This document shows, piece by piece, positions 39,263 through 43,500 of a DNA stretch of 64,000 bases (position 1 is its first letter; each line of letters starts with the position of its first letter). The translations under genes were made by a program, and so were the position numbers. A model generated the notes under the pieces. The model did not search any database and had not been told where the DNA came from. It saw only the letters and a list, made by a program, of their open reading frames with translations. The stretch comes from Bacillota bacterium (lineage in GTDB: Bacteria; Bacillota; Clostridia; Ch29): positions 111,481 through 175,480 of the forward strand of contig JAQUCT010000001.1 of assembly GCA_028686075.1 (NCBI GenBank), in the 5' to 3' direction.

Positions 39263-39324
39263 AATGCCCCTTATATATGTCATACTAATACGGATAACCT
39301 GTGAAAAATGGAGGGAGTAAAACA

Positions 39325-40680
39325 ATGGGGAAAATAGGTACATGCTATCTGGTGCCGCATCCTCCCATCATAGTTGCGGAAGTCGGGCAGGGGGAGGAAA
39401 GAAAAGCCCGGAAAACAATTGATGCGATGGAGAAAATATCGCTAGAGATTGCCGCTAAGAAACCGGAGGTTTTAGTTGTCATTACGCCCCACGGTCCCTT
39501 GTTCAGGGATGCCATTGCGGTGGGGGTACGGAGGGAATTTAGCGGGAACTTTGGCAGCTTTGGCCGGCCCGGGGTATCCCTGTCATTTCCGGGGCACATA
39601 GAAATGGCCTTTGATATAATGGAAGAGGCTGCCCGGGAGGGCATACCCGTTATGGCCGTTGACGAAGGCACCCGCAAGAGGTACGGCATATCCCCGGGCC
39701 TCGACCACGGGGCCCTGGTGCCCCTGTATTTTATAAGCAAAAAGTACCAAGGCTTTAGTCTTGTACACATAACCTACGGGCTGCTTTCCCCGGGACAGCT
39801 ATACAGGTTCGGCGTGTGCATCCAAAGGGCGGCCGAAAAGCGAAATGGCCAAACCGCCATTATATGCAGTGGAGACCTGTCCCACAGGCTAACAAAGGGA
39901 GCACCCGCCGGTTACAGCAAAAGAGGCATCGAGTATGACCAAAGCCTTGTGGCTCTCCTGAAGGACATGAATGTGGACGATATAAAGAGTATGGACCCCG
40001 GTCTGATAGAGGAAGCCGGAGAGTGTGCTTATCGGTCTGTGGTTACCACCCTGGGGGTTATGGACGGCTATAGGGTGGATTCCCGCATATTGTCATACGA
40101 GGGCCCCTACGGTGTGGGGTACTGTGTTGCTGCCTTTACCCCCTTTAAGAGGGACCCCCAAAGAGAAAGGGGAGACCCCTTTATCGGGTTAGCCCGTTTC
40201 GCACTGGAAAGTTATATAAAAAATGGTGAGGTAATTGACCCACCTGACGGACTTCCGGAGGAAATGCTGTTCGAAAGGGCCGGTGCCTTCGTATCCCTTA
40301 AAATGAACGGACAGCTTAGGGGCTGCATAGGTACAATATCGTCCACCACCGAAAATATTGCCAGGGAAATAATAAACAATGCAATAAGTGCTGGCGTGAG
40401 GGACCCCCGGTTTTATCCCGTTACGTTGGAGGAATTGGAATGTATTGAGTATTCAGTGGATGTACTGGGACAGCCGGAGGCCATCCAGTCCATGGACGGG
40501 TTGGATGTGAAAAGGTACGGCGTAATAGTCCGCTCGGGGGGAAGGACGGGGCTTCTGCTGCCCGATATCGAAGGGGTTGACACCCCGCAGCAGCAGATAG
40601 CTATTGCCCTTAGGAAAGCGGGTATTAACCCCGGGGAATCCTATATTCTGGAGAGATTTGAGGTAATAAGGCACCAATAA
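39325..40680 (+). CDS. AmmeMemoRadiSam fusion protein: N-terminal class III extradiol dioxygenase-like (Memo/LigB) domain plus C-terminal AMMECR1 domain
   Basis: CYLVPHPPIIVAEVGQGEE... VVITPHGP; C-terminal GAFVSLKMNGQLRGCIGTISSTTENIAREIINNAISAGVRDPRF. Confidence 0.92.
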   Translation: MGKIGTCYLVPHPPIIVAEVGQGEERKARKTIDAMEKISLEIAAKKPEVLVVITPHGPLFRDAIAVGVRREFSGNFGSFGRPGVSLSFPGHIEMAFDIMEEAAREGIPVMAVDEGTRKRYGISPGLDHGALVPLYFISKKYQGFSLVHITYGLLSPGQLYRFGVCIQRAAEKRNGQTAIICSGDLSHRLTKGAPAGYSKRGIEYDQSLVALLKDMNVDDIKSMDPGLIEEAGECAYRSVVTTLGVMDGYRVDSRILSYEGPYGVGYCVAAFTPFKRDPQRERGDPFIGLARFALESYIKNGEVIDPPDGLPEEMLFERAGAFVSLKMNGQLRGCIGTISSTTENIAREIINNAISAGVRDPRFYPVTLEELECIEYSVDVLGQPEAIQSMDGLDVKRYGVIVRSGGRTGLLLPDIEGVDTPQQQIAIALRKAGINPGESYILERFEVIRHQ

Positions 40681-40691
40681 GGGGTGAGGAT

Positions 40692-41675
40692 ATGGAATTC
40701 AAAAAGGCTTTGCACTATATAAGGGATGGGGACACCGTACGGTGTTTTCTGTGTCCCCACGGATGCGTACTCAAACCGGGGCAAACCGGTAGATGCAGCG
40801 TAAGAAGAAATAAGGGCGGCGTTTTGTATTCGCTAAACTATGGAAAGGTAACAGCCTGCAATGTCGACCCGATAGAAAAAAAGCCCCTCTATCATTTTTA
40901 TCCCGGAAGTCGGATACTATCGGTGGGCAGTTTCGGATGCAACCTAAAATGCGGCTTCTGCCAGAACCATGCGATTGCCCACGGTACTCCCGGGACGGTT
41001 TTTGTCTCCCCCGAAGGCCTTGCGGACCGGGCGGCGTCAGCGGAGGATAATATAGGAATAGCCTATACTTATAACGAGCCTTCCATATGGTATGAATACG
41101 TACTGGACACCGCCCGCATTGCCAGGGAAAGGGGGCTTAAGAATGTGCTGGTGACGAACGGTTATATAGGCATCAAAGCCCTGGAACAGCTGCTCCCTTT
41201 TATAGACGCTCTAAATATAGATGTAAAGGCTTTTTCTGATGCTTACTACGACAGCATATGCTCAGGCAGGCTTTCCCCTGTCCTTGATACCGTAAAAGCG
41301 GCGGCGGGACGCTGCCATGTGGAGGTTACAACCCTTATTGTGGACGAACTTAACAGCAGCATTGACGAACTGGAAGGCCTGGGGGAATGGGTAGCCGGCA
41401 TTGATAAAAGTATTCCCATTCACCTTTCAAGGTATTATCCGGCGTATCAAATGGACAGGCCCCCAACCCGGTTGGAGACAATGGCTGCTGCCGCAAAGGC
41501 GGTTAAAAAACACCTGGATTATGTCTATATAGGCAATGTGGCCGGTGCCGACAACGATACCTACTGCCCCGACTGCGGAGTAAAACTGGTGGAAAGAAAG
41601 GGCTACGGCGCGAGCCTTCTATTTGACGGCAAAAAGTGCGGTGACTGCGGAAAGCAAATCAATATGGTGGTTTAA
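40692..41675 (+). CDS. AmmeMemoRadiSam system radical SAM enzyme
   Basis: SVGSFGCNLKCGFCQNHAIA radical SAM CxxxCxxC; zinc-like CPDCG...CGDCG C-terminus. Confidence 0.93.
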   Translation: MEFKKALHYIRDGDTVRCFLCPHGCVLKPGQTGRCSVRRNKGGVLYSLNYGKVTACNVDPIEKKPLYHFYPGSRILSVGSFGCNLKCGFCQNHAIAHGTPGTVFVSPEGLADRAASAEDNIGIAYTYNEPSIWYEYVLDTARIARERGLKNVLVTNGYIGIKALEQLLPFIDALNIDVKAFSDAYYDSICSGRLSPVLDTVKAAAGRCHVEVTTLIVDELNSSIDELEGLGEWVAGIDKSIPIHLSRYYPAYQMDRPPTRLETMAAAAKAVKKHLDYVYIGNVAGADNDTYCPDCGVKLVERKGYGASLLFDGKKCGDCGKQINMVV

Positions 41676-41727
41676 AGATATGGTATCGTAATAAACGGTT
41701 AAGTTTTAAAAGCATATGGTTTTAAAC

Positions 41728-41776
41728 TCCCCCCTTACTCCATATAATTATATAGAGTAAAGGGGGAGCTTTTATT
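41728..41776 (+). terminator. Terminator upstream of L,D-transpeptidase gene
   Basis: CTCCCCCCTTACTC...GAGTAAAGGGGGAGCTTTT. Confidence 0.8.
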
Positions 41777-41778
41777 AT

Positions 41779-43217: not shown

Positions 43218-43500
43218 CTACAGGGGGATGGTAAGAATAATGGTAGTTCCTTTTTCCGGCCTACTGTCCGCTGAAATATCCCATCCGTGAAGGGTTGCAA
43301 TTCTTTTTACTATCGCAAGGCCCATACCGTAACCTTCTATCTCTTTGCTCCGGGAGGGTTCGCTCCTGAAAAGCCCTTCGAATATACGGGGCAGGTCGTT
43401 GGCGGCGATGCCTATTCCGTTATCGGAAACTTCCAGGCTGCTCTTTAATCCCTTTACTAGGGCTTTCTCATCATCTATCAGCAAAATCTTTATGGCACAG
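43218..43500 (-). pseudogene. Two-component system fossil: response regulator N-terminus joined to histidine kinase C-terminal ATPase
   Basis: IKILLIDDEKALVKGLKSSLE then VSDNGIGIAANDLPRIFEGLFRSEPSRSKEIEGYGMGLAIVKRI. Confidence 0.8.

Follow-up and report, generated by a model that had tools for sequence, protein, structure and literature searches.

Gene structure of the locus

The window analysed here is a 64,000-nucleotide stretch of one contig from a Bacillota bacterium, whose assembly comprises 1.95 Mb in 95 contigs. The gene order in the window is rplM, rpsI, uracil permease, cwlD, fusion, radical-SAM and L,D-transpeptidase, the names rplM, rpsI and uracil permease having been assigned from sequence. 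Positions 39325-41675 are the exact extent of two forward-strand genes, a fused LigB-AMMECR1 gene and a radical-SAM gene. The following features were assigned.

39325..40680, + strand: fused LigB-AMMECR1 protein, 451 aa (alternative GTG start at 39301; model pLDDT 94.4, pTM 0.73)
39343..40128, + strand: LigB/protocatechuate-dioxygenase-like domain, aa 7-268 (PF02900, E 2e-51)
39358-39360 (H12), 39490-39492 (H56) and 40021-40026 (E233/C234), + strand: proposed metal site (conservation among 55 fused proteins; profile alignment with dioxygenases of known structure)
H128, S182, D184 and H187, + strand: proposed second sphere of the LigB site (conservation and profile alignments)
40189..40665, + strand: AMMECR1 domain, aa 289-447 (PF01871, E 9e-44; TIGR04335, 123.6 bits, cut-off 99)
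40315..40335, + strand: LRGCIGT loop, aa 331-337 (identical in 55/55 fused proteins)
40692..41675, + strand: AmmeMemoRadiSam radical-SAM protein, 327 aa (TIGR04337, 285.4 bits, cut-off 220; model pLDDT 96.3, pTM 0.93)
40938..40961, + strand: cluster motif C83xxxC87xxC90 (alignment of 42 radical-SAM proteins)
41727..41778, + strand: stem-loop followed by a U-rich tract (-24.5 kcal/mol, z -3.2)

The fused protein is encoded by a single open reading frame. The sequence-only reading had placed an extradiol-dioxygenase-like domain at its N-terminus and an AMMECR1 domain with the LRGCIGT loop at its C-terminus, and both were borne out by matches to PF02900 and PF01871 far beyond chance. Of the two candidate starts, GTG 39301 and ATG 39325, the latter was preferred because the Shine-Dalgarno sequence GGAGGGAG lies upstream of it at 39310-39317 and because it matches the N-termini of the relatives, which read MGRIG... 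or MGKIG.... The fusion is single-copy in the source assembly; no other LigB or AmmeMemoSam_A match was found in the 95 contigs. The stop codon of the fusion ends at 40680 and the radical-SAM gene, with the ribosome site GGTGAGG, starts at ATG 40692, leaving an intergenic gap of 11 nt. The tightly spaced radical-SAM partner was thus correctly recognised, and its protein scores above the TIGR04337 cut-off.

A promoter scan of the locus gave a number of hits not above that of shuffled sequences. The hairpin at 41727-41778 lies between the radical-SAM and L,D-transpeptidase genes, and its 3' arm contains GGGGGAG, which is likely the ribosome site of the L,D-transpeptidase gene (ATG 41779). This hairpin may be an intrinsic terminator, a translation switch masking GGGGGAG, or both; a simple scanner did not list it.

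Further downstream, an 88-aa open reading frame (43218-43484, - strand) is what remains of a two-component system after a deletion. The N-terminal ~20 residues correspond to a response regulator, and the rest to the last 75 residues of a histidine kinase. The intact system of the relatives L077, L078 and L081 is longer by about 1.8 kb, and the joint in the window lies near 43432-43436. The scar reflects either a real deletion or an assembly error.

The LigB-like domain and its proposed metal site

The N-terminal domain is best called LigB/dioxygenase-like, not Memo. In a Foldseek search with the model of the fusion, TK2203 (5hee, E 1.6e-20) ranked first; the dihydroxyphenylacetate dioxygenase 8iq8 (E 3e-17) and aminophenol dioxygenases also scored well above MEMO1 (3bcz, E 6e-9, TM-score 0.5), and MEMO1 was not among the profile-search hits of the domain. 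The window protein reached 21.8 bits against TIGR04336 (AmmeMemoSam_B), below the cut-off of 26, and gave no match to Pfam Memo (PF01875) at E up to 1. Among 55 fused proteins, LigB matched all 55 and TIGR04336 matched 51 with E no higher than 0.001 (lowest 1.9e-12), while PF01875 matched 35 at 0.01 with weak E-values. Because the fused family matches LigB, TIGR04336 and, weakly, Pfam Memo, we place it between LigB and Memo.

Alignment of the 55 fused proteins showed that H12, H56, S182, D184, S186, H187 and C234 are invariant. Position 233 is occupied by E in 50 proteins, by Q in four and by D in one, and C234 is followed by G in 47. The unfused LigB protein of locus L031 keeps C at the 234 position and has M in place of E at 233. 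In MEMO1, the Fe ligands are H49, H81 and C244, equivalent to the His-His-Glu of LigB dioxygenases, and E251 of aminophenol dioxygenase is an iron ligand (PMC11081632). In the profile alignment, it is E233 and not C234 that occupies the third-ligand position, opposite E251. As judged from these alignments, the third ligand appears ambiguous: E233 aligns with E251, yet C234 is invariant and E233 varies.

The PF01875 proteins of Firmicutes were considered as the missing Memo and were rejected. Clear ones occurred in just 7/150 genomes, and they lie outside the fused protein, lack the CG motif and carry N-terminal leader-like stretches. An hhalign comparison of the LigB domain with these proteins ended just short of the third-ligand position. 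Those at L096-L102, which have such leader-like stretches and VVPHH/DFSH motifs, seem to be exported paralogs with no relation to the fused system.

The AMMECR1 domain and its arrangement in the fusion

The AMMECR1 domain passes the TIGR04335 cut-off and carries the LRGCIGT loop without exception among the aligned fused proteins. The monomer model of the fusion, with a pLDDT of 94.4 and a pTM of 0.73, suggests that the LigB and AMMECR1 domains have no fixed mutual orientation. At locus L093 (9660-10241, - strand), a stand-alone AMMECR1-like protein with VRGCKGT scored below the TIGR04335 cut-off; its gene has no LigB or radical-SAM neighbour.

Fusion and co-occurrence across the phylum

TIGR04335 was found in 28/60 relatives, mostly in open frames of 430-505 aa. 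Among 113 distinct AMMECR1 loci, almost all from the Bacillota phylum, AMMECR1 is fused to LigB in 102 and unfused in 11; the order LigB, AMMECR1, radical-SAM is usually kept in the unfused loci. With 102/113 loci fused, the possibility that the fusion is an oddity of the source genome was ruled out. A radical-SAM gene lies downstream on the same strand in 97 of the 113 loci, some of those without a match being simply short loci. The median gap is 13 nt, and the gap falls between -30 and +60 nt in 78 of the 97.

At the genome level, with presence of the radical-SAM protein scored as a match with E < 1e-40, co-occurrence was near-perfect. AMMECR1 was present in 190 of 250 phylum genomes; 186 had both proteins, 4 had AMMECR1 alone (G080, G218, G239, G283), none had the radical-SAM protein alone and 60 had neither, and this count is a description and not a probability, since the genomes are not independent and shared ancestry inflates it. 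In four AMMECR1-negative genomes, all of family f130, the radical-SAM matches were weaker, at E 1.7e-40 to 3e-33, and miss the threshold. The loci of G080, G218 and G283 (L074, L075 and L076) were inspected, and in all three the LigB-AMMECR1 fusion is intact with all site residues kept. The fusion may therefore act without the radical-SAM protein. In eukaryotes, AMMECR1 and MEMO1 function without a radical-SAM protein.

The sequence-only reading had held that absence of the fusion and of the co-occurrence from relatives would count against it. Both are present, with 186/190 genomes carrying the two proteins and 102/113 loci fused. Its argument from fusion and tight coupling survived in part: both are kept across the phylum, but the fusion is the usual form there and is not specific to this locus, and the coupling is conserved but not absolute, given that 4/190 AMMECR1-positive genomes have no radical-SAM protein. 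We consider that the fusion and the radical-SAM protein may form one functional complex. The locus was probably inherited vertically.

Two further loci were recorded. The genome of L003 (Calditrichales bacterium MX18-03), labelled as another phylum, carries a LigB-AMMECR1 fusion 52% identical to that of the window with an adjacent radical-SAM gene, which reflects either horizontal transfer or a mislabelled genome. The Patescibacteria locus L006 has ClpB-like and PriA-like neighbours.

The radical-SAM protein

The protein matched PF04055 (E 1e-16) and has both the CxxxCxxC motif and, by fold match, the partial TIM barrel of the radical-SAM superfamily. In the alignment of 42 radical-SAM proteins, C18, C21, C25, C35, C292 and C295 are further invariant cysteines, and C316 and C319 are conserved at 90% or more. 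Among solved structures, the PFL-activating enzyme 3cb8 is closest in fold (E 1.5e-13, target TM-score 0.80); RlmN, TYW1 and GDGT-MAS were weaker structural matches. Weak sequence matches to glycyl-radical activases were also found.

Glycyl-radical activases have a recognition signature, DGxGxR. This signature is absent here: the sequence at residues 69-74 is FYPGxx, and only 5/42 proteins have R74. Moreover, no Gly_radical match was found in the AMMECR1-bearing control genomes (Thermotoga, Methanocaldococcus, Haloferax, Sulfolobus and Methanosarcina). Given the missing signature and the control genomes without a glycyl-radical enzyme, the radical-SAM protein is probably not a conventional activase, and this role was rejected. 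The source genome does encode two glycyl-radical enzymes, which, together with the activase fold, would suit a protein that activates one of them from a distance, its pairing with AMMECR1 being positional. This is very improbable, since the two proteins occur together in 186/190 genomes and the controls and the signature speak against it.

The same fold and sequence matches allow another reading, in which the protein is an activase of its own partner and places a radical or covalent change on it, for example on the LRGCIGT loop of AMMECR1, in the style of the PFL-activating enzyme. The adjacency of the genes and the invariant Gly-Cys loop in the partner are in keeping with this. However, DGxGxR is replaced by FYPGxx, LRGCIGT is no glycyl-radical motif, and some genomes have AMMECR1 but no radical-SAM protein. 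We regard modification of the partner as possible, if unlikely.

Gene neighbourhood and candidate substrates

In ~60 relatives, cwlD, truA, rplM, rpsI, cdaA-cdaR-glmM and argC-argJ-argB-argD recur near the system, and these recurrent neighbours are an old gene-order block. This survey bears on a proposal in the literature. Burroughs et al. 2019 reportedly described Memo-AMMECR1-radical-SAM contexts and proposed, on comparative grounds, a role in the modification of nucleic-acid bases or isoprenoid lipids. PMC7159879 cites Burroughs et al. 2019 (JBC, doi 10.1074/jbc.RA119.007595). The structural matches to RlmN, TYW1 and GDGT-MAS agree with such a role, but they are expected for any radical-SAM fold. 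In the loci examined, the neighbours identified by Pfam, among many unannotated ones, included no known tRNA-modification or isoprenoid enzyme except truA in the old ribosomal block. Base or lipid modification is therefore quite unlikely.

Neighbours of arginine and ornithine metabolism were counted in the 150 genomes with listed AMMECR1 coordinates. Of the 21 genomes with both, 12 have an arginase as the immediate upstream neighbour of the fusion, in the same orientation, and an ornithine-racemase-like gene takes this place in 14/40. These two upstream genes are more informative than the old gene-order block. Together, an upstream arginase and/or racemase-like gene accounts for 25 cases. ArgJ is found within 12 kb downstream in 53/103 and never upstream. 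At least one of the three neighbours occurs in 77/150 genomes, and an upstream gene and a nearby ArgJ are combined in only one genome of the 150. In eight loci (L075, L088, L092, L117, L121, L128, L133 and L135), the arginase and/or racemase-like gene shares the strand of the fusion and directly precedes it; the gap is small, at 3-81 nt with almost every candidate start. The upstream arginases score over the TIGR01229 cut-off; the ornithine-racemase-like protein belongs to the NF040742 family, below its cut-off. The racemase-like gene of G218 is adjacent beyond the arginase, just outside the counting distance. PMC8503589 had no bearing on the ornithine-racemase-like gene.

These counts and gaps point to a role in arginine, ornithine or polyamine metabolism, with an arginine- or ornithine-derived small molecule as the substrate. 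Several observations weaken this reading. ArgJ is always on the same side, in a block with rplM, rpsI and cwlD, so the position of the downstream arg cluster may be inherited. Many of the arginase-upstream cases come from one family (f63). No arginase match was found in the source genome, in which ArgJ and a racemase are on other contigs. Arginase and racemase-like genes are also neighbours at sites that lack the system; this speaks against the role, but it also makes inherited order a poorer account of the upstream pair. Taken as an account of the whole system, a role in this metabolism is unlikely. Arginine- and ornithine-derived small molecules are nevertheless the best substrate lead from the gene neighbours, and the neighbourhood is a new, if modest, lead. 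In a more specific version, the pair would be an unrecognised anaerobic system linked to arginine/ornithine or polyamines, in which the E-C metal site and the radical-SAM enzyme replace O2 and the neighbouring arginase, ornithine-racemase-like and argCJBD genes work with it functionally and do not simply reflect inherited order; we hold this version to be rather improbable.

Proposed mechanism

The reading that we favour, with slightly better than even confidence, is a two-gene AmmeMemoRadiSam system in which, in anaerobes, a radical-SAM enzyme and a metal-site fusion protein share one substrate as partners. Gene structure, domain identity, residue conservation and co-occurrence are established, and the metal, partnership, complex and reaction are what we infer. 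Under anoxic conditions, the radical-SAM protein would bind [4Fe-4S] and SAM and give rise to a 5'-deoxyadenosyl radical, with the fusion protein as its partner. The LigB domain is predicted to bind Fe(II) or another divalent metal via H12, H56, and E233 and/or C234, and would hold the substrate or act on it chemically, with no need of O2. The same substrate might be bound or carried by the AMMECR1 domain, which has the invariant LRGCIGT cysteine loop.

Relatives of AMMECR1 and MEMO1 are found in organisms as far apart as archaea and humans, and the human AMMECR1 protein has a link to disease. The fused bacterial form provides a compact, single-copy, two-gene version that is open to deletion or anaerobic expression, and the arginine/ornithine neighbourhood provides a first candidate class for metabolomics.

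Comparison with known systems

The trio is already named in NCBIfam (TIGR04335 A, TIGR04336 B, TIGR04337 rS), and no publication on the chemistry of the AmmeMemoRadiSam system turned up in the literature searched. As expected of such a system, A, a B-type domain and rS are adjacent and co-occur at this locus. The assignment to the trio made in the sequence-only reading stands for A and rS, both over cut-off, but not for B, whose homologous domain is LigB-like, fused to A and under the TIGR04336 cut-off (21.8 vs 26). Because its B domain is a homologous LigB-like substitute, we filed the locus as a LigB variant and not as a full canonical member. It is an ordinary member, and the LigB-fused variant is common in the phylum.

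The LigB domain shares its fold, a candidate two-His site and, in 50/55 fused proteins, a Glu at the third-ligand position with class III extradiol dioxygenases (TK2203, HpaD-type 3,4-dihydroxyphenylacetate dioxygenase and the aminophenol dioxygenase beta subunit). It differs from them in the invariant Cys beside the Glu, the AMMECR1 fusion and the radical-SAM partner. Human MEMO1 has an Fe site of two His and a Cys (PMC11081632), to which H12, H56 and the invariant C234 may correspond; however, it is distant in the fold search, absent from the profile hits and not fused to AMMECR1. The archaeal AMMECR1 structures PH0010 (1vaj), MM0484 (1zq7) and ST0229 (1wsc) share the AMMECR1 fold and the LRGCIG loop at 26-34% identity, but are stand-alone proteins. 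Finally, the likeness to the pyruvate formate-lyase activating enzyme (3cb8, 3c8f) lies in the radical-SAM barrel (target TM-score 0.8), whereas the radical-SAM protein of this locus is without DGxGxR and carries additional cysteines, namely a four-Cys motif at the N-terminus and Cys pairs at the C-terminus.
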